This document shows positions 7,827-61,470 of a DNA stretch of 64,000 bases, piece by piece. Numbering within the stretch: the first letter of the stretch is position 1; every line of letters begins with the position of its first letter. Made by a program: the position numbers and the translations under genes. The notes under the pieces were generated by a model. It saw only the letters and a list, made by a program, of their open reading frames with translations, searched no databases and was not told the DNA's origin. The stretch covers positions 2,480,001 to 2,544,000 of the forward strand of contig JAPEIS010000010.1 of assembly GCA_029531795.1 (NCBI GenBank). Direction: 5' to 3'. This stretch comes from Sclerotinia nivalis. Its lineage: Eukaryota > Ascomycota > Leotiomycetes > Helotiales > Sclerotiniaceae.

Positions 7827-8079
7827 GATACAACAAATTTCGAAGAACAAAATTTCTTCGAAATACAATCAGTTCTTCCCTTTATTTAATAAAGAAATAC
7901 TCCCAAAATTCATTCCAATTGTTCCCAAGTGAATCGGCTCAGTAGTTGTTGTGATACTATCGTCGTCGCTCAAAACACGAAACTTACACGAAAATTCGTA
8001 TAAAAACTCTTTCCAACTTCCTTCAACTTTTTCTCTTATTTGAATATATAAGATTTTGATAGATTTATCAAATCTAATA

Positions 8080-9561
8080 ATGGATTCTTCGATGAAAGGA
8101 TCCTTTGGATTATCTTCTGAATCTATTCCTCTACAAATAATAGTGATACTAGATTCTCCAATATTTAGCCCCTTTATTATTGATTCAATTTCTTTATTCA
8201 GAAATCTTTTTACAATACAAAGATTATTCAATCCTTTGAATCCTACCTCAGTCCAATCTTTCAATTCGCAAAACCAATTGAATATTCTCAATTCAAATGA
8301 TCCATTCCGATTCTCTGATAAATCGATTCCTTTTAAAATTAATAACAAACGTTGTCGATAATCAATCAATTCTGAAATCAAACAATTTAGTCAATTAGGA
8401 TCTAACTCCACAAAACCAAAAGAAGTTATCCAAAAAGCTAAAGATCTTTTTATTTTAATTATCTCTTTGGAAAAGGAAATCAAAGAACAATCAAAGATCC
8501 TAGATTTAATCGAAATATTTCGTAAATATTTCGAAAAAGGAAAATTGATAAAAACTTCGAATATTATTACATTACAAATCTCCCATCTCGAAAAAACTAC
8601 TAAAAGAATTGAAAATCAAGCCAATCATCTTTTCAACCTTCCTAATCAATCAATTATTCCTTTAATAAACACTTCATCAATTAACAAAGTAAGTTATACT
8701 ACTATTACCAAATTAGTAGGGGAATGGAAAGTAGTTTCCAAAGGGAACTCTACAAAACAAAAGTCTGTAAAGTAAAAGAATGATATTCCTAACAAACGAT
8801 TAATCCTTATCAATCCATTTCTTTATCAACCCAATTCTTTTATACTATTATATACAAGAAACAAGATCAACAAAGCCTTCAAAAAGACTGGCATCAACAA
8901 TCCAGTTATTTTGGCCATTACTACAATTAGAAGTAATAATATCATCCTAACCATTAATAACCCCTTCAATGCACAATTCCTTATTGAAAAAAAAGAGGTC
9001 TGGAATTGTATCCTCGAATCAAAAAGATTTCAAATCGACAAATTATAATACAAAGTGATTATATACAAAATCCCAATCAAGGAATTCTCTAATCCAAAAG
9101 GAATGGATTTGATTAAAGACGAAATTAAAACCTTCAATTCAGGGCTCATTATAATGAGCATCCCTTATTGGTTTACTAATGCTTCTAAAAGAACTACTTA
9201 ACAAAAAGAAGCAATTGTGATTGTATTTGCTATACAAAAGGAAGCAGAATTAGCTATTCGAAAAAGACTTTATATCGCTGATATTAGCGTTAGAATTGAA
9301 AGATTCTATCCTTCCACCTCTTTCTTTCAATGCAATAAATGTCAAGAATTCGGTTATAACGAATTATATTGTAAAAAACCTTCAGTTTGTGGACTTTGTA
9401 GTAATAATCATGCTACAGCTGGTTATTTTTGTTTAATTTGTCAAGCTAAAGGCAAATCTTGTCAGCATTTAATGATCAAATACGTTAATTACAAAGGAGA
9501 ATATAAAGCTAACTCTAAAGCATATGAAATATACCAAACAATCATTCGGAAATCCAATTAA
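8080..9561 (+). pseudogene. LINE ORF1 (gag-like), nested copy, decayed
   Basis: The start ATG at 8080 (MDSSMKGS) aligns with the parent copy's MDSPMEGS. Encodes a Ser/Pro-rich N-terminus, a basic middle and a C-terminal array of cysteine motifs (CNKC...C, CGLCSNNH...C, CLIC...C), the nucleic-acid-binding knuckles of LINE ORF1 proteins. The first knuckle has Tyr where the chelating His is expected, explicable as a C-to-T change. Several in-frame stops occur (for example at about 8362, 8775 and 9046). The stop codon TAA at 9559-9561 overlaps the ORF2 ATG at 9561. Confidence 0.85.
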
Positions 9562-12500
9562 TGTTATACAACAATATTCGCATTCTTCAAATCAATCTAA
9601 ACAAGAGTTTTCAAGCCATCGAAAATGCTCTTCAACTTGCCTTAGAATTCGATATCGATCTTATAATCATTCAAGAACCTTGGATCCTTTCAAACCCTAA
9701 AAAAGATTACTCCTCAACCAGATCGATTGCTCATTCTAGCTTTTTCCAATTCCTTCCAAATTATCCTCCGAACCTTCGTCCCTGTACAATGACCTACATC
9801 TCGAAAGGATTCAAACCGCTAATAGCCCTAACCCCCAACTCTCCCAAAGATACAGATATTCAAATTATCGATATCACTCAGAGAAATCATACGATTCAAT
9901 TATTCAATATATATAACGAAGCTAATCAAACTAAAAAGAAAGATTATATTATCGAAAGATACCTTTTCAATACTCCCCTCTCTCATTATACTATCCTTAC
10001 AAGAGACTTCAATTCTCACCACCCTTAATGAAACCCCTTTTCCAACAAAAGCTCAAATACCGACCAATTGGCCAAATAGTTTAAAGATCATAACCTCATC
10101 CTTTTTAATGAAACAGGGACCAATACCTTCTATCGAACGAATATAACAAATTCAAGCGTTCTAAATCTTACCTTAGCTATTGAAGTGATATCCTTTAATA
10201 TTATTGATTGACAAATCCTTCCTAACCTTGGATCAGATCATTTAGGGATCCTATTTGAAATAAAAAGCACTAGAACCCGTTCAACAAATATCGTTCTATT
10301 AGCAAGATTCAATACAAAACAGGTGGATTGGGACAAATTCACAAATACATTCAAATCAAAGCTATCATCTTCAATTATCCTGAATTCTAATAATTACCTC
10401 AATATCATTACTTCAGAATCCAATTCTCTTGATTTTCTTCTCGACAAAAACCAACAAAAGCAAATATTGAATAAAACTGTAATAGAATTCATCCGAATAA
10501 TCACCCATTCGACTGAAATCAGTATACCGAGAATCAAATCAACCAAAAGGGCAAAGCCCTAGTGGTCTCCACAATTGAAAGCTCTTCGGAAACGATTTGC
10601 AAATGAATATGAAAATGTTAAACAATACCCTGAAAACGATATATTCAAGAAAATCTACCAATCAGCAAAGAATCATTACTTTCAAGCTATTAAAACAGCA
10701 AAAAAGAATCATTGAAACAAATTCCTTGAAAAAGAGGATATCCAAACAATCTTCAAAGCAATATCCTATACAAAAAATCTTCAAACCGAAAGGATTCCGA
10801 ATATCCGATCTAATTCCTCTCAACTCGAAAACTCCTTCGAAGAAAAATACTCAGTTTTCAAATCTGTTCTATTCCCTCCCCCTCCAAGTACTACAGCATT
10901 CAAATAGGAAGGATACAAACAATCGAAGAAGTGGGACTGACCTAAACTCACAGAAAATGAACTTCTTAATGTCTGTTCAACTAAAATCAAAAGAAAAACT
11001 TCAGGCTTAAATGGAATCATTCAGGAGATTGTTATTCGAGCTTATAAAGCAATCCCAAAAGCTTTCTTTATCCTTTTTAACAATCTGATTGATCTTGGTT
11101 ATCATCCTTTTTGTTGGAAACAAGTCACTGGAGCGATACTCAAGAAACCTTCGAAACTAGATTATACCATTCCAAAAGTATATAGGATTATTACCCTCCT
11201 CAATTGTTTAAACAAAATAAGTGAGAGAATCCTAGCTCAAAGGCTCAGCTATCTAGCCGAAACTACGAATCTATTGCATCATTCCCAAATGGACGGAAGA
11301 CAAAAGAAGTCAGCTATCAATACAATAATCTTGCTCACCATCGAAATCGAAAGGAATACAAGAATCAAGAAGAAAACCTCAGTTCTTTTCCTAGATGTCA
11401 AAGGAGCCTTCGATTATATATCCAAGAATCGACTCTTAGATATCTACAAGAACCTCAATCTTCCAATTAGTCTTATTGCATGGATATCGTTATTTCTGAA
11501 AGAAAGGCTATTCAAACTGTTATTTGACAATCAGATCGAAACCTTCAAACTAATCAATACTGGAATCCCTCAAGGAAGCCCCATATCATCAATTCTTTTC
11601 CTGATCTATATCCGAGATCTTTTTCAATCGAATTCGGTTGAATATCTTTCTTATATTGATGATATAGCCTTAATCACTCATTCTTCAAATTGGAAAAAGA
11701 ATATCGTTTCCCTTGAAAGAGCAGCGAAGCAAATCTATGCTCTGGGTGAGAAAAACGCCATTCAATTCGATTTAGCAAAAACGGAGTTAATGCACTTCTC
11801 CATTTCCAAATATACAAAAAAGACTTCAATCAAGCTTCCAAATTCTGAGATTGTACAACCCTTATTACTAATTAGATGGCTAGGTATTTGATTCGATTCC
11901 GGCCTCAATTTCAAGCAACATGTTATAATCCGAGCTATTCAAGTTAAGACATCCTTCTACCGAATGGCCAGATTAGCCAATACTGAAAAAGGACTTAATC
12001 CCAAAGCTTTAAGGCAATTCTATATAGCATATGTTACCAGTATAACTGATTACGGATCAATCATTTAGTGGAAAGATTAAGTCCAATTCAAAAAGATTCT
12101 TCAATTACTTCAGAATCTCGCTCTACGAAAGATACTAGGAGTATTCAAAACTTCCCCAATAAAACCAATGGAAGTGGAAGCTGCTTTGTACCCTCCGGAA
12201 ATCAGATTAAATGCTGGAATCAGACAATATGCTTTCAGATTATTGAAAATCTCACCTTCCCACCTTGTTAATCTAGTTTCCAAAAGATTAATTGCCGAAA
12301 AAGAAGATCAAAGCTCGATAATAACCCTTCGAAGAAAACTACCTAAACCTATTTAGCTTGAGAAGATCACGAATTCAATCGAAGAAGATATCGATCCTTT
12401 AACTTTAGAGAAAATCGATCATTTTCATTTCCCTTTTTGGAAAAGGGATATTCCATACAAAATCAATATTAGCAAGCTAACAAAGGAGGATGCTGTAATT

Positions 12501-13502
12501 GTCTATAACCTTGCATTCAAATATAGATGCAAGAATATTATTACAATATATACTGATGCCTCATCCATTTTGGATGGAATCGGAATTGGAATCGGGATTG
12601 CAGTTATTCTATCGAATGGTCAGGTTTCATATCAGGAAACCATCAATATTGGGGTGAATCAGTTTGTCTATAATGATGAACTTCTTGGAGTTACTAAAGC
12701 AATCGAATATGCTAGCTCCATTGCTCAATCAAACGAAAAATTCAAAATCTATTCAGACAATCAAGCCGGATTATACCGATTGAAAACACCCTCTAATGCT
12801 CCTGGCCAGATATACCAAATTAGAGCAATCAAGGCCATAGAAACTCTCCTTAGAAAAAAAGCTGAAATCTCCCTTAATTGAGTTTTAGGGTATACCTTCG
12901 TTGAAGAAAACGAATTGATCGATGTTTTAGTAAAAGAAGTTACAAAACAAAAATCATTATCAAACAAAACCAGTTTTGCTTTATTGGAAATGGATATCAA
13001 AAGAACGAAATCTGAAGAATAGAATACCCTCCTCTATTCATCTAATTCAGCTTATTCGAAAATATACCTTTGGAAGATTAGCTCAAAGATCGGAATTCCA
13101 GAAAACATCAAAAGAAATTCTATAAGCATTTTGTTCCAGCTTAAAATCGATCACGGATATTTCAAATCCTACTTACAACGATTCGGAATCTCATCAAACG
13201 ACAAATGTAGATATAGAAAGAGAGAATCCCCTGATCATTTTCTTTTCAGCTGTCCTTTATACAAAACAACTAAAAGAATACTCAATAAAGATAATCCTAC
13301 CTTTCGACTCATTATAAAATATCTATTACATACTAAAATAGGAATCATTAAAACCCTCGAATTCATCGAGGCAACGAAAATAGCCACTAGATCGTGGTAT
13401 CTCATTAGACAACAAGAAGAAAATGAGGCAATCGAAGGGGAAGAAAACGAAGGAGGAATGAATGAGGAAGAAGAACGTGATCAATCCAATCAACCCGGCT
13501 AA
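9561..13502 (+). pseudogene. LINE ORF2 (endonuclease-RT-RNase H), nested copy, decayed
   Basis: Starts at ATG 9561 inside the TAATG overlap with ORF1. Visible blocks: APE-type endonuclease (IIIQEPW at the Mg-binding Glu block; RDFNSHHP); reverse transcriptase with FLDVKGAFDYI (motif A), GIPQGSPISS (motif B) and YIDDIA (motif C catalytic Asp pair, intact here); RNase H with IYTDASS and IYSDNQAGL; and a C-terminal Cys/His region CRYRKRESPDH...C. The tail after residue ~1270 is acidic (EEENEAIEGEE). Interrupted by many stops and frame changes, so not translatable as one protein. Confidence 0.88.
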
Positions 13503-13828
13503 TTTGATCATTTTGGTCAATGTGGTCAATTTGGTCAAAATGGTCAATCGAATCATGTAATCAATATGGCCAAAACGATCAATACAATCATTATTTCATT
13601 TGTTATATTCCCTTAGTATATATGAGAGTATTTATAAGGCGGGCTTTGTTCCCCAAGATTAGTTTTCACTTCCCCTATTCAAATTATAGGATGGAGACCG
13701 TCTCCATCCATTCAATCTTGTATTAGCTACGGCCTATTAGGTCAGCATTTCACCATATATCATTTGTTAGGAGCCCTTAAGGCCCCCAGCCGTCTTAGAT
13801 AGTCTTAGACTCAGTGTAGACGTTAATT

Positions 13829-13853
13829 AAATCAATCAATCAATCAATCAATC
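13829..13853 (+). repeat. (AATC)n 3' tail of nested LINE
   Basis: Six tandem AATC units end the nested element and abut its right target-site duplication. The same tail, (TCAA)n in the sense direction, ends all five LINE-related copies in this window. It acts as a microsatellite-like 3' terminus in place of poly(A). Confidence 0.9.
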
Positions 13854-13867: not shown

Positions 13868-16800
13868 ATAGAATAACTGCAATCCCGATACCAATTCCGA
13901 TTCCGTCCAAAGTGGATGAAGTATCAGTATATATTGTAATAGTGTTTTTGCATCTGTATTTGAATGCAAGGTTATGGATAATTGCGGTATCCTCTTTTGC
14001 TAGCTTGCTGATATTGATTTTGTATGGAGTATTCCTTTTCCAAGGAGGGAAATGAAAGTGATCGATCTTTTCTAGGGTTAAAGGATCGAAATCTTCTTCG
14101 ATTGAATTCATGATCTTTTCAAGTTGAGTAAGTTTCGATAGTTTCCTTTGAGGGGTTGCTATTGTATTTAGAGTTTCCCTTTCGGTAGTTAGTTTATCCA
14201 TAATTGTATTGACGGGATGGGAAGACGAGATTTTCAACAATCTGAAAGTATATTGTCTGATTCCAGCGTTTAATCTGATCTCCGAAGGGTATAAAACGGT
14301 TTCCACTTTCATTGGCTTTATTGATAAGGTTTTGAAGATTCTTAGAATCTTATGTAGAGCAAGATTCTGGAGTAATTGAAGAGTCTTTTTGAACGAGGTT
14401 TAATCTTTCCATTAGATGATTAATCCGTAATCAGTTATACTAATGATACATACTATGTAAAGCTATCTTAGTGCTTTAGGGCTTAGCCCTTTCTCAATAT
14501 TAACTAACCTGACCATTCGATAAAATGAAGCCTTAGCTTGAGTTGCTCGAATAGCAATATACTATTTGAAGTTAAGGCCGGGATCGAATCATATTCCTAA
14601 CCATCTGATCAATGATAAAGGTTATACAATCTCAGAATTTGGGAGCTTGATTGAAGCATCTTTAGTGTATTTGGATATGAAGAAATACATTAATTCCGTT
14701 TTTGCTAAATCGAATTGGATAGCGTTTTTCTCATCGAGAACATAAATTTATTTAGCTGCTCTTTCGAGGAAAAGGATGTTCTTTTTCCAGCTTGAAGAAT
14801 GAGTGATTATAGCTATATTATCAATATATGAGAGATATTCAATCGAATTCGATTGAAAGAGATCTCGAATATAGATTAAGAAAAGGATTGGTGAGATTGG
14901 ACTTCCTTGAGGGATTCCGGTGTTGATTGGTTTAAAAGCTTCGGTCTGACCATCGAACGAAAGTTTGAGTAATCTTTCTTCCAAAAATGACGAGATCTAT
15001 ACAATAAGACTAATTGGAAGATTGAGGTTCTTGCAGATATCTAAGAGTCGATTCTTGGATATATAATCGAAGGCCCCTTTGACATCTAGGAAAAGAGCTG
15101 AGGTTTTCTTTTTGTTTCTTGAATTCCTTTCGATTTCGATAGTAAACAGAATTGTTGTATCGATGGCTGATTTCTTTTGTCTTCCACCCATTTGGGAATG
15201 ATGAAGTAGTTTTGTTGTTTCAGCAAGGTAGCTAAGCCTTTGAGCTAATATCCTTTCACTTATCTTGTCTAAACAATTCAAAAGAGCGATAACTTTATAT
15301 ACTTTTGGAATAGAATAATCTGGTTTCGAAGGTTTTTTGAGTATAGCTCCAGTAGCTTGTTTCCAGCAAAAAGGATGATAATCGAGATTAATCAAATTGT
15401 TGAAAAGAGTAAAGAAAGCTTTTGGGATTGCTTTGTAAGCTCGAATAATGATCTCCTGAGTAATTCCGTTTGGGCCAGGGATCTTTCCTTTGATTTTAGC
15501 CGAGCAGGCATTGAGAAGTTTATTTTCAATGAGATCAGGCCATTCCCATTTTTTTTGATTGTTTATACCCTTCCTATTCAGGTGCAGTTGTATATGGGGG
15601 GGGAGGGAAAAGGGTAGATCTGAAGGCCGAATATTTTCCTTCGAATGAGCTTTCAAGCTGAGAGGGGCTAGATTGAATATTCGGGATCCTTTCGGTTCGA
15701 AGATCTTTCGTATATGATATTGCTTTGAAGATCGTTTGAGTATCCTCTTTTTCAAGGAATTCGTTCCAGTGATTCTTTTTTGCTGTTTTAATAGCTTGAA
15801 AGTAATGATTCCTTGCTGATTGGTAGATTTTCTTGAACATATCGTCTTCAGAGTATCGTTTAATATTCTCATATGCTGATGAGAGCTGTTTACGAAGGGC
15901 TTTCAATTCTGGAGACCACCAAGGCTTTGCTTTTTTGGTCGATTTGGATCTAGGTATACTAGCGTTTGCTGAATTGGTGATAATTCGAGTGAATTCCATT
16001 GCGGTTTTATCTAGTATTTGTGTGTGCAGGTTTTTGTTAAGAAGAGAATCGAGAGAATCGGATTCTAGAGTGAGGAGATTGAGGTATTCGCTCGAGTTGA
16101 GGATTGTTGATGTAGTTATCTCAATTTCGAGGGTTAATGCAAATTTGTTCCAATCTGCTAGTTTTGTATTGAACTTTGCTAATGGAGCAATATTCGTAGT
16201 ATGAGATGAAATACCTTTTATTTCAAACAGGATCCCTAAATGATTTGAATTAAGATCAGGAAGAACTTGCCAATCAATAATATTGGAGGATATTGTTTCA
16301 GTAGCTAATGTAAGATCTAAAATACTTGGATTTGTTATATTAGTTCGATAGAAAATACTAGTCCCTGATTCATTGAGAAAGATAAGGTTTTGGTCTTCGA
16401 ATCATTCGGCTAATTGATCAGCATTCGAGCTTTTGTTTGAAAAAGGGTCCCACCAAGGATGGTGAGAGTTGAAGTCCCTTATAAGAATAGTATGATGAGA
16501 GAGAGGAGTATTGAAAAGGCATCTTTCAATGGTATACTCTTTCTTTTTAGCTTGATCAGTTTCATTGTATATATTGAATAATTGAATCGTGTGATTTCCC
16601 TAAGTGATATCGATAATTTGAATATCTGTATCTTTGGGAGAATTGGGGGCTAGGGCTACTAACAATTTGAATTCTTTCGAGATGTAGATCATTGTACAGG
16701 GACGAAGGTTCGAAGGATAATTTGGAAGGAGTTGGGAAAAGCTAGAATGAGCAATCGATCTAATTGAAAAGTAATCTTTCTCAAGATTTGAAAGGACCCA

Positions 16801-16920
16801 AGGTTCTTGAATGATTATAAGATCGATATCGAATTCTAAAGCAAATTGAAAAACACTTTCGATAACTTGAAGACTCTTGTTTAGGTTAATTTGAAGAATG
16901 CAAATATTGTTGTATAACAT
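13868..16920 (-). pseudogene. LINE ORF2, parent copy, decayed and interrupted
   Basis: Minus-strand ORF2 from ATG 16920 (MLYNNICILQIN). Endonuclease with IIIQEPWVL; a long open stretch 14997-15872 carrying FLDVKGAFDYI of the reverse transcriptase; GIPQGSPISPILF and YIDNIA at 14748-14984. The catalytic YIDD has become YIDN, a GAT-to-AAT change expected from RIP on the opposite strand. The RNase H N-terminus (IYTDTSS) stops at the nested insertion; the rest of the domain lies at 7042-7812. Confidence 0.87.
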
Positions 16921-18403
16921 TAATTGGATTTCCGAACGGTTGTTTGGTATATTTCGCATACTTTAAAGCTAGCTTTATACTCTCCTTTGCAATTAACGCA
17001 TTTGATCACTAAATGCTGACAAGATTTGCCTTTAGCTTGACAAATTAGACAAAAATGACCAGCTGTAATATGATTATTGCTACAAAGTCCACAAGCTGGA
17101 GGTTTTTTGCAATATGATTCGTTATAACCGAATCCTTGACATTTATTGCATTGAAAGGAAAAGATGGAAGAATAGAATCTTTCAACTCTGACACTAATAC
17201 CAGCGATATATAGTCTTTTTCGAATAGCTAATTCTGCTTCCTTTTGTATAGCAAACGCAATCACAATTGCTCCTTCTTGTTGAATAACTCTTTTAGAAGC
17301 ATTAATGAACCAATAAGGGGTACCCATTATAATGAACCCTGAATTGAAGGTTTTAATTTCGTCTTTAATCAAATCCATTCCTTTTGGACCAGAGAATTCC
17401 TTGATTGGGATCTTGTGTATAATCACTTTGTACCATGGTTTGTCGATTTGAAGTCTTTCTGATTCGAGGATACGATTCCAGACTTCTTTTTTTTCTATAA
17501 GGAATTGTGCATTGAAGGGGCTATTAATGGTTAGAATGATATTGTTGCTTCTAGTTGTAATAATGGCCGAGATAACTGGTCCGTTGATATCAGCCTTTTT
17601 GAAAGCTTCATTGATCTTGTTTCTTGTATGTAATGGTATAAAGGAATTGAGTTGATGAAGAAGTGGATTGATAAGGATTAATCGTTTGCTAAGAACATCA
17701 TTCTTTTGCTCTACAGGCTTTTGTTTTGTAGAATTCCCTTTGGAAACTACTTTCCATTCCCCTACTGATTTGATAACAGTAGCATAGCTTGCTTTATTAA
17801 TTGATGAAGCGTTTGTTGAAGGAATAATTGATTGATTAGGAAGGTTGGAAAGATGATTAGCTTGATTTTCAATCCTTTTGGTAGCCTTTTCGAGATGGGA
17901 GATTTGTAATATGATAATATTCGAAGCTCTTATCAATTTTCCTTTTTCGAGGTATTCACGGAATATTTCGATTAGATCTAGGATCTTCGAGATTGTTCTT
18001 CGGTTTCCTTTTCCAAAGAAACAGCTAGAATAAGAAGATCTCTAGCTTTTTGGATAGCTTCTTTTGGTTTTGTGGAGTTAGATCCTGATTAACTAAATTG
18101 CCTGATTCCGGAGTTGATTGATTGTCGACGACGTTTGTTATTGATTTTAAAAGGAATCGATTTATCAAAGGATCGGAATGGATCATTTGAGTTGAGAATA
18201 TCCAATTGGTTTTGCGAATTGAAAGATTGGGCTGGGGTAGGACTCAAGAGATTGGATGATCTTTATATTGTGAAGGGGTTTCTGGATGGGGGGATTGGAT
18301 CAATAGTGAAGGGGCTGGATGTTGGAGAGCCTAGTATCACTATTATTTGTGGGGGAGTAGGTTCAGGGGATGATCCAAGGGATCCTTCCATCGGAGAGTC
18401 CAT
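16920..18403 (-). pseudogene. LINE ORF1 (gag-like), parent copy
   Basis: The start ATG at 18403 encodes a Pro/Ser-rich N-terminus (MDSPMEGSLGSSPEPTPPQ). A stop at about 18290 and others to about 18000 separate it from a clean 338-codon stretch (16920-17936) carrying the coiled-coil-like HLEKATKRIENQ region and three cysteine knuckles near the C-terminus. The ORF1 stop and ORF2 start overlap as TAATG (16918-16922), exactly as in the nested copy. Confidence 0.85.
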
Positions 18404-18690
18404 TATTGGACTTGATAAACCTATCAGAGCCTTATACGTTCAAATAAGGAGAAAAGTTGAGGGAAGTTGGAAAGAGTTTTTACGCGAATTTTCGTGTAAG
18501 TTTCGTGTTTTGAGCGACGACGACAGTATCACAACAACTACTGAGCCGATTCACTTGGAAATATGATCTTCTCTTGGGCCATCACCATCAAATCAATAGA
18601 GTCAATTGCTCATTCAATCTCAAATCAATCAAAGGGAAGGAATCATAATTTCTCGTTTAATTTCTCCTGCTTGAGGGGTAACGCTTCACC

Positions 18691-19899: not shown

Positions 19900-20762
19900 A
19901 TTGATTGATTGATTTAATTAACATCCACACTGAGTCAAAGACTATCTAGGACGGTTAAGAGCTCAATCGAGCTTTTAATAGATGGCTATAGGTAATGTTA
20001 TCTAAATAGTATACAAATTTGTATATATTTTTGATGAGGGAAATGAAAACTAATATTAAAGAGTAAAGCTTGATCTTTATATAGTATCATATATAAAAAT
20101 AAAAATATCAATCAAAGTATTACATTTATGATTTTCCAAATCCGATTTCTCTATCAATCAAATCCAAACAATCTTCTTTCATATCAACTCTTTATTCTAT
20201 TTGTAACTTTCCAATAGTTATATTTTACTTAATATCGACTTTATAGAACCCTTCAAATCATAAAGATATTGATTCTATAAAGTACCCCAATCCTGTATAT
20301 AGTATATCCTTTATCGAATTTTATAATAGATATATTATTAGTTTGGATTGTTCTATATAGCTTTTTCAAGTATATAAATTATTGTTATTTTGATTCAAAT
20401 CGAAAGAGATAAAGCTTGAACTTTAAAATCGAATTTGATAAATTGTATTCGATACCTCAAAGGGATTTTGGAAATGATTTTGTAGTATATTGTTATAGAT
20501 GATAATATTGTCCTTTGTTTTGTAATAAAAGTAATATTGTAGAAAGTATAATCCGATAATACAATTATCAAAAAACCAAGATCTGGTTTTTGCTATCAAT
20601 CAATTCGGAAACAAAAAACGTTGCGATCGAGTGTTTTTTCCTTTTCCAATCATTACGATTCTATCAAATGATTCAAACTTAGCTTTGCAGATTTTAATAA
20701 TTAAATAAAAGAACTGGAGGTTCGTAGAGGACACCGCGTACAGGTGTTGAGTCTTGTCCTCC
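19900..20762 (-). mobile_element. non-autonomous LINE-dependent element C
   Basis: An 861-863 bp insertion flanked by a perfect 16-bp target-site duplication. In the sense (minus) direction it starts GGAGGACAAGACTCAACACC, runs through AT-rich non-coding DNA and ends with the 3' UTR stem-loop and (TCAA)n tail of the local LINE (19900-20040). It encodes no protein. The 5' ~95 bp and part of the body match element D at 60135-61224. It looks like a SINE-like passenger that borrows the LINE reverse transcriptase through the shared 3' end (inference). No tRNA-, 7SL- or 5S-like promoter is visible at its 5' end. Confidence 0.85.
20670..20762 (-). ncRNA. candidate HDV-like self-cleaving ribozyme, element C
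   Basis: Sense strand 5' end of element C. P1: GGAGGAC pairs with GTCCTCT (7 bp, first pair G-U). P3: ACC/GGT closing a 7-nt loop TGTACGC. P1.1: GT of that loop with AC just after P1'. P2: GACTCAA with TTGAATC, one C-A mismatch. P4 is weakened by A/T changes but keeps CAG/CTG. The catalytic-strand motif CTAA is present before P2'. All elements occur in the order of an HDV-type double pseudoknot. See element D for covariation. Paper fold only; not tested. Confidence 0.55.
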
Positions 20763-24007: not shown

Positions 24008-25042
24008 ATGTCTTACGCACTGTCAAATTATCCTCCAACTGCTAGAAGACATAACCGAAGCGGAAGCCCGCCTGCCACTGGTTCTGGTTGCTACGAAGAC
24101 ACGGACGCACTTCGGCATCAACAACAGGAAGAGTTTCCTCATTTGCTCGCCCGCCGTCAAAATCGGAGTAAATACATCCCAAGACCTCTCTTACCAAACT
24201 ACTCAATTGTTCCCTCGACGATTGACCTCGAAGGTACATGGATTGAGCCTTTCCTAAAAGAATTTCCTCAATTCACGAAGCTTCCGGCAGAACTTCGAGT
24301 CAAGATATATAAGTTCGCATGTCTAGAACCGAGAGTAATTCCTATCTGGCCAGTCATTATCAATCGTACAAACAGACAAGTAGAATTTCGATTCGGATCC
24401 GAGACTCCTGCAATCATGCAAGTCTCCCACGAAGCTAGAAAAGAATCACAAAAGTTGGATATCTACGTTCCATCGCCTGATCCTCCATTTCCATTTCCTC
24501 GCATCTGGTTCAAACCTACTGTCGACATCATTTGCCCCGTACGGAATGGCAGAACCTTATGGACTGAAACCCAGCTTTCGATATTCGCTCAAATCATTAT
24601 TCACATGAAGATCGAACGATTAGGTCTTGATAATTTCGTTTCTCCAGATTACAAGTCCGAAGCCGACCTAGACGAGTGGAACAACTTCAGCAAATTCGCG
24701 AAATGGATGAATCAGAATCTTCGTCAAATATTTCTTTACACTTCGTTTAAGCAGTTTAACATCCGTTACCAGCCTCTCAAACTTGTCGAGTCTACCAAAA
24801 ATCACCCCGAGCAAAGTCCAGAGGTACTTATGATGATTTCTATCCCGGCGTGCAGAAGATTCGGAGAATTGCATCTAATGATACTGGACCTAGAAGCCTC
24901 TCGCGTTGCCCAAGATATAATAGATGAGGCTTACGAGGAGTTTGGCCGAGAGAAAGAAAAAATGCCTTTCGTACCTGGTTGGCTCTACGAACATCGAAAT
25001 ACCTGGAATCGGCCAGAACTTACACCCTTGTCTGCCTTATAG
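24008..25042 (+). CDS. 2EXR-domain protein
   Basis: Single-exon, 344 residues, ATG at 24008. N-terminal ~80 residues polar and disordered. The 2EXR domain starts at ~86 with FPQFTKLPAELRVKIYKFA, continues with VSHEARKES (~139-147) and closes with IWFKPTVDIICP (~166-177), the repeated E-x-R type pattern of this family. The C-terminal half has features shared with the neighbouring members: KIERLGLDN, LRQIFLYT and a terminal VPGWLYEHRNTW. Function unknown for the family; no signal peptide or membrane segment. A leftward in-frame extension is not possible, and an overlapping frame at 23790-24257 is a shadow. Confidence 0.85.
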   Translation: MSYALSNYPPTARRHNRSGSPPATGSGCYEDTDALRHQQQEEFPHLLARRQNRSKYIPRPLLPNYSIVPSTIDLEGTWIEPFLKEFPQFTKLPAELRVKIYKFACLEPRVIPIWPVIINRTNRQVEFRFGSETPAIMQVSHEARKESQKLDIYVPSPDPPFPFPRIWFKPTVDIICPVRNGRTLWTETQLSIFAQIIIHMKIERLGLDNFVSPDYKSEADLDEWNNFSKFAKWMNQNLRQIFLYTSFKQFNIRYQPLKLVESTKNHPEQSPEVLMMISIPACRRFGELHLMILDLEASRVAQDIIDEAYEEFGREKEKMPFVPGWLYEHRNTWNRPELTPLSAL

Positions 25043-58940: not shown

Positions 58941-60121
58941 AAATGGATAAAGATACGAGATAGATTCAGGAGGATAAAAGCTACACTGAATATTGCAGAT
59001 GGATATCTTGAGGATCACTACCTTGAATCAATTGTTTTACCAAGCCAGAAAAAAGAGAGAGATGATTGATCAAATAAATAGATAGATAATTGTTTTCTCA
59101 CACATCCCGCAGTCGTTTTCGACTCAGAAGGGCTCATCATGGAATCTGTTTATCGAGCTCGGACTGAATGTTGTCTACAGGTATTTTGAGGATCGCTACC
59201 TCGAGATATCTTGTACAGTTTCTTCAGCTTCGAGAAGAAGAACTTTATGCTTCAAGTCTTAAAGAATAGAATCCATGTCGAGAACTTTGTAAATGTTTTA
59301 TATTCTGTGAGGATCCCGTGAATCATTCATACCTGCATGGCCTAGTGCTAGCCAGCTAGTGTCCTCGTACCTTCAGTCTCCCCCTCAGTGTTCCACTTCG
59401 TCTCTCTGTACTGCATCACATCCCCTGAACTGCCCAAGGAGGTGCGTCCGTTCCATGAACCATATGGCTTTTGTGGCTGATTTTGACTCGTTTAACATTG
59501 CCCTCAAGTACATTCATCCTTGGATGCCAAACTCCCTCCGTCGTAGGTCCCGATAATTTCGGCAGCCTTTGCCAGACCATCAGGACAATAATCTGCGCTG
59601 CAACAACTATCTAACCCTTTGCCGCAAAATGATATCCTCAACATGGTGTTCTACCTCCGATCGCACAACGTTCATACATCGCATCAATGAGTCATGAGTA
59701 ATCTGTCCCGTTATCAGTAGATTTTGATTTAAATTTACCAAGCCCTCTTCATATACCGTACCACGGACGCGCGTAGATGCGCAGACGTTCGGCAAAGCTG
59801 TCGAAGGCTTTGGGGTGGGATAAAGCAACTTTTATCGAAGCTCTTTACAACAAGAGCTCTTTGAAAATAGAAGTTTTGACGATGAGCTTTTTTGGAAATT
59901 TGAGGAAGGGAATTGCTGGTTGATATAAAGAGAGTAAGACAAGCTAGTACTTTAAATGGGTTCTATCTGTGATTATTTGGGGTTCTTTGATGCAAGATTG
60001 TTATTTGCTTTATACCAGTGTGAATTGGAGTTGAGCACAAAAAAGGAATTCTTAATTGAAATATTGATAAACAGATCAAATACTGATGTTAATATGTTTA
60101 AATCAATATATCAATATGAAT

Positions 60122-60134
60122 ATAAGAAGGGTTT
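60122..60134. repeat. left target-site duplication, element D
   Basis: ATAAGAAGGGTTT, repeated exactly at 61225-61237. Confidence 0.92.
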
Positions 60135-60220
60135 GGAGGGCGAAGACTCAACACCTGTACGTGGTGCCCTCTACGAACCTCCAGCTCTCTATTGAGAGTC
60201 TGCAGAGCTAAGATTGAATC
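60135..60220 (+). ncRNA. candidate HDV-like self-cleaving ribozyme, element D
   Basis: P1: 60135-60141 (GGAGGGC) with 60166-60172 (GCCCTCT), 7 bp including a G-U wobble at the first pair, as in HDV-type ribozymes. P2: 60145-60151 with 60214-60220, one C-A mismatch. P3: 60153-60155/60163-60165 closing loop TGTACGT. P1.1: GT 60157-60158 with AC 60173-60174. P4: 60182-60189/60194-60202, CAGCTCTC against GAGAG-T-CTG. The catalytic strand CTAA at 60208-60211 puts C60208 at the C75 position. Position 6 of P1 is G-C here and A-T in element C, a compensatory change. Predicted cleavage is just 5' of 60135, exactly where the element begins. Confidence 0.6.
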
Positions 60221-61162
60221 ATTTGATGGAATCGGATATATTGGAAGAGAGAGAGAGGGTTTCCTGATTACGATATTCACGATAAAAGGGTTATTATGAT
60301 TTTACAACATCAATATCTTCGAAAGGATGAACGAATATCAATCCAAAATACGGATGATAGCTATAGAAGCCCTGGTTAGATTCAACATCTGCCATCGACT
60401 ATTACCTCAATACGAGATATAATACGCCTAATAAATCCCTTCTATTCCAAAAAGGTTTTTTTGATATGGAATTTGCTACTGTTTTATTCGCATTTTATAC
60501 CTTTTTTCGATAATCGATTATCGAAAACACATTCATTTTAATATTACGATTATTACGAAACAGAGAATACCATTATCTATCAATTAATGCTATACTTTGG
60601 GCATCGATACGATATTACACCTTTTTTTTGATTTTACAAAAATATTTTTTGTACATATATAGATAGGATTAGGGCTACGCCCCACTATCATTACATTCAA
60701 ACGATCGATATTCTATTCGGCAATTTCGATTATTTATATTCAAACAAAGCTGAAGATTATCACACCTAGGAAGGTATGCAAAAAAGCTAATGAATGAATT
60801 CGAGCTGAAGAGAATAATGTTTTCCAATTGTTTTTCACTAATATGAGGATTCTTTTGTTATACTGAAGGTAATCTTGACAAAGATGATTTTTAATCTTTA
60901 TAGAAAGTGGATATCGGAATAGTAGATTGGGTCGAAGAAGAAAATTATATCAATGGGATACTTTAATTAGCAAAGGGTAGGGAAAGAGTGAGGAAGGAAA
61001 GATTTTAGAGGATGAAGATATCGGGCTTTATTCCCCAGTATTAGTTTTCACTTGCCCTCAATTAACATTTCAAGGGTTGAAAAGAAACCCAAACTATACA
61101 AACTGTATATTAACTAACATACAATTCCCCATAGCATTAATTAGGAGCTCATAGAGCCCCTA

Positions 61163-61197
61163 GCCGTCCTAGATAGTCTTAGACTCAGTGTGAACGT
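61163..61197 (+). promoter_or_regulatory. conserved 3' stem-loop of LINE and passengers
   Basis: CCGTCCTAGATAGTCTTAGACTCAGTGTGAACG just before the tail; found with few changes in copy A, the parent, the nested copy, element C and element D. CGTCT...AGACG closes the stem in the LINE copies and changes to CGTCC...GGATG in element C with pairing kept. Probably the RNA feature recognised by the LINE reverse transcriptase (inference from stringent-type LINEs). Confidence 0.6.
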
Positions 61198-61224
61198 TAA
61201 ATCAATCAATCAATCAATCAATCA

Positions 61225-61237
61225 ATAAGAAGGGTTT
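61225..61237. repeat. right target-site duplication, element D
   Basis: ATAAGAAGGGTTT, directly after the (AATC)n tail, identical to 60122-60134. Confidence 0.92.
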
Positions 61238-61470
61238 AGTAAGCGATATCAAAGATTATTTGTGTATGGAATGGAGGTTTATTTCTTGATCATTTAGAGG
61301 CCGATGGAAACAAATAAAGTGCGTTAATTATCTTTCATGATGTCGGATAGGGCGGTGCAGATATATAGAATGCAATAATGGCTATATATGGATCTGAAAC
61401 GAATACTGTTGTGAGAGTACACGAAACGGGGGGTGATGGTTAAATACAAGTGATCAACAATATGTACAAG

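Follow-up and report, generated by a model that had tools for sequence, protein, structure and literature searches.

Predicted HDV-like ribozymes at the 5' ends of LINE-dependent passenger elements in the genome of Sclerotinia nivalis

Ribozymes of the HDV-like class are already known to head LINEs and the shortened forms of such LINEs. In the portions of the published texts drawn on here, they are placed at the 5' ends of R2, R4/Dong, RTE/baggins and L1Tc elements, with cleavage at the first base of the element in several of these clades (PMC3774820), and also at the heads of non-autonomous elements, namely NARTc/SIDER, in which NARTc is a truncated L1Tc (PMC4035085), and the R2 SIDEs, which are internal deletions of R2 (PMC3414825). 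Retrozymes are likewise described as non-autonomous, and are associated with hammerhead ribozymes and circular RNAs (PMC7761336). A further arrangement is that of MINE in Magnaporthe, where a full-length WEIRD sequence is fused by template switching to a 5'-truncated MGL LINE; WEIRD itself was described in 2007 as an abundant 1.1-kb non-coding RNA with no known function and no relatives among the genomes available at the time (PMC2104539, in part). Among the literature matches listed, with subscription papers mostly outside the search, we found no account of passengers that have a ribozyme head while their LINE lacks one, and none of a ribozyme in WEIRD-type RNAs; no literature joining WEIRD, LINE, ribozyme and fungus was found either.

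The first-pass annotation of a stretch of Sclerotinia nivalis DNA had proposed that the first 86 bases of one element (its element D, our family A) form an HDV-type double pseudoknot, and that a passenger of a fungal Tad-type LINE thereby uses the same means of forming its 5' end as the LINEs named above. Beyond that reading, we observed that the fold heads several families of element, that the LINE is without it, and that one of the families is MINE/WEIRD-like in its arrangement. The best reading of these sequences is that the passengers, and not their helper LINE, use HDV-like self-cleavage for their 5' ends.

The window, by which we mean the whole 64,000-nt stretch that was analysed, contains a family A non-autonomous element of 1,090 bp at 60135-61224 on the plus strand. 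The element is flanked by an exact 13-bp target-site duplication, ATAAGAAGGGTTT, at 60122-60134 and again at 61225-61237, so that the duplication, as had been claimed, ends directly before the predicted cut site. Its LINE-like 3' tail (61022-61224) terminates in a (TCAA)n run and matches 13640-13852 of the window (73% over 218 bp) and 6725-6639 (88% over 87 bp). No open reading frame of more than 50 aa lies wholly within the borders of the element, and ARAGORN gave no match at 59900-61400 to a tRNA-like head of the kind that marks a tRNA-derived SINE. The window also holds, on the minus strand, a family B element at 19900-20762, with a ribozyme match at 20668-20762 and a 14-bp duplication, CAGTCCCTTGCCTT. 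Elsewhere in the window, between 24008 and 34497, 5 open frames (at 24008, 26265, 28827, 31683 on the minus strand, and 33616) are similar by eye and are perhaps tandem paralogs. Of at least 120 relatives of one window protein, the best-ranked that bear an organism name are from Glarea lozoyensis (64%), Trizodia sp. (61%) and Monilinia fructigena (70%), as would be expected of a leotiomycete.

All of the helices that had been drawn for the head of the family A element were confirmed. The predicted ribozyme occupies 60135-60220 (plus strand, as are all of its parts), with cleavage predicted 5' of G60135. P1 is formed by GGAGGGC (60135-60141) and GCCCTCT (60166-60172; this 3' strand is seen in the aligned copies), and comprises 7 bp with a leading G-U pair. 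P3 pairs ACC (60153-60155) with GGT (60163-60165) and encloses a 7-nt loop, L3, of sequence TGTACGT (60156-60162), in which GT (60157-60158) pairs with AC (60173-60174) as P1.1. P4, with its loop, spans 60179-60205, and is followed by the CTAAG of J4/2, which begins at C60208 and aligns with the GCUAAGA of the Rfam family RF02682; we presume by likeness to HDV that C60208 is the catalytic residue, and it is altered in a few copies, e.g. that at locus L062. The 5' strand of P2, GACTCAA (60145-60151), pairs with 60214-60220. The head thus has these structural features of the HDV class: at its extreme 5' end a P1 of roughly 7 bp, with P1' abutting P3', a double pseudoknot in which P2 and P1.1 are present besides P3 and P4, and a C at the start of J4/2.

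A search with an HDV covariance model, which had been suggested as a check, aligned RF02682 (HDV-F-prausnitzii) to 60135-60221 over all 74 model positions, beginning exactly at 60135, with 23.2 bits and an E-value of 0.017 (a blind scan of 211 nt with all Rfam families), though this score does not reach the gathering threshold of 44, so that a default Rfam scan of the window lists nothing. Rfam applied to 5 other loci (L092, L101, L051, L080 and L106, from families B, C, E, G and H; 6,803 bases) gave nothing at E ≤1. A bare descriptor of the fold matched 24 times, counting both strands of the window and including the 2 true ribozymes, and is therefore of no use by itself. The minimum free energy at the ribozyme was also unremarkable when compared with shuffled sequences (z -1.23). 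Because of this unremarkable folding energy and the looseness of the descriptor, the case rests on comparison of copies. It should be noted that in the free-energy minimum GGAGG (60135-60139) is bound to CCUCC (60178-60182, CCTCC in the DNA) and not in P1; this pairing is available to family A and, by eye, to B, is absent from family C, and may be an alternative, inactive fold.

We searched the genome (50.3 Mb, 31 contigs) with the first 266 bp of the family A element, where 40 of 176 first-look candidates were scored and all 40 matched, with 100 bp of the family B element (172 first-look candidates, 40 scored), and with core patterns of the fold, which gave 188 matches as against 74 for the reversed control with a short pattern, and 20 against 0 and 39 against 2 with the others. 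About 7 sequence families bear the fold, if D is counted with B; F and H, with one copy each, have no proven borders. P1 reads GGAGGGC/GCCCTCT in family A, GGAGGAC/GTCCTCT in B, and GGGATGC/GCATCCT in C, which has a short P4. The one copy of family D (L054) has a P1 as in C and, by eye, a B-like body; family E (L080) is a distant relative of C with a P2 that appears to be GACTCT/AGAGTC. Family F (one copy, in L087) has the P1 GGCCAGC/GCTGGCT, and family G, of about 0.9 kb with a CA-rich tail, has GGCCGGC or GGCCAGC paired with GCTGGCT. In family H (one copy, L101) the P1 strand is GGCCAGC, P3 is GCC/GGC in place of ACC/GGT, and P4 is long. The A and B copies are near-constant in length. Between the A and B elements, alignment at E 1e-3 is confined to 123 bp at the ribozyme and 132 bp at the tail.

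A covariance model of P1, P3 and P4 (model R1), the seed of which comprised 7 sequences from families A, C and D, was run against 52 source sequences (186 kb) and recovered families B, E, F, G and H, all of which are absent from the seed. E-values were 3.2e-17 to 1.1e-14 for B, 3.2e-10 for E, 7.1e-8 for F, 1.5e-4 for H (with P4 skipped) and 2.8e-5 to 0.36 for G. The family B ribozyme at 20762 of the window scored 79.9 bits with a covariance model whose seed excludes its family. In viral contigs there were 22 matches to the core pattern, none of which was recovered by model R1 at E ≤1, and prokaryote contigs gave 0 matches to a similar pattern.

Two of the single copies lie near open frames. 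The solitary family H fold (L123:281-422, in L101) has a 12-bp P4 stem, CTTGTACTTACC/GGTAGGTACAAG, and by eye a P2 of ATCTCT/AGAGAT; a 713-aa open frame, HET-type-like by look, lies some 0.5 kb downstream of it, and the fold is possibly a ribozyme outside any mobile element. The family F ribozyme (L087:1477-1566) lies downstream of a G element and is followed, after about 230 nt, by an open frame resembling, by eye, Ty3/gypsy RT/RNase H; no duplication was found for the family F copy.

Covariation among the genome copies, which had been named as the test of the fold, was observed between families in P1, P4 and P2. Standard pairs made up 95.9% of the pair cells in 44 distinct rows, as against 39.8-48.5% when partners were slid by 1-3 columns, and the covariation score was 0.590, as against 0.203 in shuffles and at most 0.134 in the slid controls; these values are favoured by the fitting of the alignment to the structure, and the rows include L078:103-192 (E 0.93), probably a chance match. 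Changes on both sides of a pair were found in 5 of the 7 P1 pairs, 1 of 3 in P3 and 9 of 10 in P4, and the P1 exchanges between families are visible by eye in the alignment; as the first-pass annotation had noted, the minus-strand copy at 20762 already differs from the family A copy by a compensated change of G-C to A-T in P1. The number of further pair types was not above that in shuffles, 345 of 500 of which reached the observed number.

For counts of intact helices we used 94 copies, i.e., 103 rows less 9 with unrelated heads and a P1 of 6 pairs or fewer, admission having required 5 of the 7 P1 pairs. All 7 P1 pairs were kept in 89 of these copies, across 4 different helices (GGAGGGC, GGAGGAC, GGGATGC and GGCCRGC), and P3 was complete in 93. 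Both P1.1 pairs were present in 93 copies, a figure that is biased upward, since the fetching patterns and the row filter contain that stretch. Uncompensated substitutions in P1 or P1.1, which had been named as grounds for rejecting the fold, were confined to a few copies: at least one P1 pair was broken in 5 of the 94 and P1.1 in 1 of the 94, and P1.1 is also broken in L084:1646, which was excluded by the filter and stands outside the count. The intact share is an upper estimate, because copies were collected through similarity searches or through patterns that include L3 and, in part, TACGAA, and because of the P1 requirement for admission.

P2 lies outside the covariance model, and it was complete in 74 of the 91 copies scored in register (the single copies E, F and H were left out) and had 1 or 2 mismatches in the other 17. 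This in-register count replaced a looser one, through which other helices could pass. The window copy reads GACUCAA/UUGAAUC, with one C.A mismatch, as do 11 further copies, whereas GACTCAA/TTGAGTC is fully paired in 39 copies. The family forms of P2 (GACTCAA/TTGAGTC, GATTCAA/TTGAATC and CTCTC/GAGAG) are compensated, and in the commonest form of each multi-copy family both P1 and P2 are fully paired.

We then compared the positions of target-site duplications with the first base of the fold, G1. Among the 54 A and B copies, 52 had a duplication of at least 10 nt; when upstream flanks were paired with downstream flanks at random, 15 of 1065 pairings did. The duplication ended at G1 in 43 of the 54 and stopped one base before it in 8, and in one copy (L037) it lay 11 bases away; none was found for L025 and L038. 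In family G a duplication of at least 12 nt was found in 10 of the 12 copies tested, 8 of them ending at G1 (the control gave 10 of 132 at ≥10 nt), and none was found for the copies in L093 and L105 (7 nt only). The duplication ended at G1 in 2 of the 4 family C copies tested, the random-pairing controls covering A, B and G; L070 has an AT-rich repeat 8 bases from the first G, and no duplication was found for L072. Copies of D (L054), E (L080), F and one G (both in L087), tested within their own loci, gave no duplication. By these duplication borders, families A, B and G and two of the C copies begin where cleavage is predicted. Copies extending 5' of the first G had been named as a further ground for rejection; among copies with a duplication the extension was 0 to 2 bases, with two unclear exceptions, L037 (11) and L070 (8).

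The flanks of the G copies had features of their own. At L089, 2 G elements lie head to tail, 918 bp apart, each after TTTA[CT]GTATACGA[CT]G, as if the second had used the target site of the first. Several of the G copies in L087, L091, L092, L093, L096 and L103 have a CTACGACCACC-like target immediately to the 5' side, and this shared flank suggests a target preference.

The helper LINE lies at 7922-13852 on the plus strand (5.93 kb, counted from the 5' end through the tail match) and starts with TTCCCAAGTGAATCGG. The 5' part of a second copy occupies 14400-18561 on the minus strand, with its 5' end at 18561. The 2 copies match at 84.4% over 4,162 bp in an alignment that begins at the same base of each, 7922 (+) and 18561 (-), and this 5' end is common, within 5 bases, to 39 of 39 other scored genome copies (40 scored of 113 candidates). 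Rfam gave no HDV match at the LINE 5' end at E ≤5 and the fold descriptor none, and model R1, run across the whole window at E ≤10, found the 2 passenger ribozymes and nothing at the LINE. The last 210 bp or so of the LINE match the tail of A and B, so that these have both the 3' tail common with a LINE and the target-site duplications of a LINE-dependent passenger; they do not have the 5' end in common with an autonomous ribozyme LINE that would mark a SIDE-type deletion derivative. Compensated P1 changes, exact ends and the common tail thus supported the proposal that a passenger of a fungal LINE uses the ribozyme. RVT_1 was found at 14997-15872 (E 3.4e-11), and RVT_1 and RNase_H were the only Pfam matches in the LINE pieces scanned; 'Tad' is a label which we assume.

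Family C differs in build. Its modules are 1,186 to 1,223 nt long and non-coding, with the ribozyme at the start, and they have no match to the LINE. Of 17 copies, 16 stop at an identical ...TATTATNNCTG (CTA in one), without poly(A), and in each of 16 copies a different sequence follows by direct fusion. This sequence is the window LINE, entered at 6 different points, in 6 of the 16 (blastn) and in 2 more at the protein level; the remaining 8 of the 16 junctions were not placed on the window LINE. Copies L072 and L076 have a stretch in common, at 92%, beyond their junctions. Family C alone thus combines a full-length, non-coding 5' module with a variable, 5'-truncated LINE, which is the MINE/WEIRD arrangement. 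At L072:1698-1785 we observed repeats resembling the 3' half of the module's own ribozyme (TTTACGAATCTG..GCAGAGCCTGAG). Decayed extra ribozyme halves in module C were considered and rejected (5.4 bits, E 1.4, not significant).

From these sequence comparisons, the first ~86 nt very probably constitute a self-cleaving ribozyme of the HDV class by which the passenger RNA acquires its 5' end, with the helper LINE copying the passenger. Cleavage, co-transcription and template jump are steps that we infer. The passenger would be transcribed within a longer transcript, and the ribozyme would fold and cut just 5' of G1, leaving an RNA with a 5'-OH that is headed by the ribozyme; the presence of these heads on the passengers, with none on the helper, suggests that the passengers free their own RNA ends from the surrounding transcripts. 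The LINE enzyme would supply nicking and reverse transcription: its reverse transcriptase would recognise the LINE-like 3' tail, copy the RNA by target-primed reverse transcription and run off at the first base of the ribozyme. By this proposal the new copy would again carry the ribozyme, and the duplication would abut it. The LINE would form its own 5' end without a ribozyme. In family C the same head would sit on a non-coding RNA without LINE tail, and a jump of the reverse transcriptase from LINE RNA to this RNA would bring it into the genome.

Could the 5' block instead act at the DNA level, as a promoter with its transcription start at G1, the fold being incidental? LINE copies are sharp at their 5' end without a ribozyme, so that sharp ends alone do not require one, and the HDV-like Pr77 block of trypanosomatids is reported, in the portion of text drawn on here, as both promoter and ribozyme (PMC4035085). 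Yet the compensated changes in P1, P2 and P4 keep an RNA fold and not a sequence, and this block and the tail are all that A and B have in common; we consider the promoter reading improbable. We would give still less weight to the view that the fold is the relic of a ribozyme once captured, now dead and hitch-hiking on elements that no longer need it. The broken pairs in single copies are what such decay would produce, but the ribozyme and tail alone have stayed alignable between A and B, and full pairing of P1 and P2 in the commonest form of every multi-copy family likewise argues against a relic.

Least probable, in our judgement, is an origin from circular ribozyme RNAs, retrozyme- or viroid-like, that were reverse-transcribed as units. 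A unit that begins at the predicted ribozyme cut, and a family C 3' end that is invariant without poly(A), would both fit such an origin. However, a single exact pattern for a head-to-tail junction of family C, allowing up to 30 nt, had 0 matches in the genome, the invariant 3' end points to a linear template, and the C module at L072 is less folded than its shuffles (z +2.35, 15 shuffles).

Returning to self-cleaving heads on linear passenger RNAs, we offer one extension tentatively, as possible but somewhat less than even in likelihood. WEIRD-type RNAs may be parasites built for template jumps, in which the ribozyme would set the 5' end and the non-polyadenylated 3' end would serve as landing site, and whose sole route into the genome would be as second template of a LINE reverse transcriptase, each time with a new piece of LINE; the same head would have been swapped onto several unalignable passengers of a ribozyme-less LINE. 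If this is so, the Magnaporthe WEIRD should also start with an HDV-like ribozyme. If the RNAs cleave, the HDV-like ribozyme would be a tool that the passengers possess independently of their LINE and that is spread widely through a fungal genome; it would explain the exact 5' ends of promoterless non-autonomous elements wherever they are inserted, and would give the head of WEIRD-type RNAs a testable function. The 4 P1 helices of different sequence in one genome could serve directly as a test series for this class of ribozyme.

In comparison with described systems, the closest Rfam family, RF02682, is the best match to the fold yet stays below its gathering score, and takes its name from a bacterium. 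The R2, R4/Dong, RTE/baggins and L1Tc elements have the same class of fold at a non-LTR 5' end, but there the autonomous LINE bears the ribozyme, whereas here the passengers do and none was found in the LINE. NARTc/SIDER and the R2 SIDEs are, like the elements described here, ribozyme-headed and non-autonomous, but are shortened ribozyme LINEs, whereas the 5' end of the present passengers differs from that of their LINE. Retrozymes are also non-autonomous and ribozyme-bearing; they differ in having hammerhead ribozymes and circular RNA, and no family C dimers were found here with the one exact pattern used. The MINE chimeras resemble family C in the non-coding 5' module of about 1.2 kb with constant ends, no poly(A) and varying points of entry into the LINE, and 2 whole family C chimeras are flanked by duplications. 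The portion of PMC2104539 drawn on here mentions no ribozyme for WEIRD, and that of PMC3978060 contains nothing on the ends of WEIRD. The likeness to MINE described here is one of arrangement, and it is confined to family C, elements A, B and G being of another build, with A and B of near-constant length.
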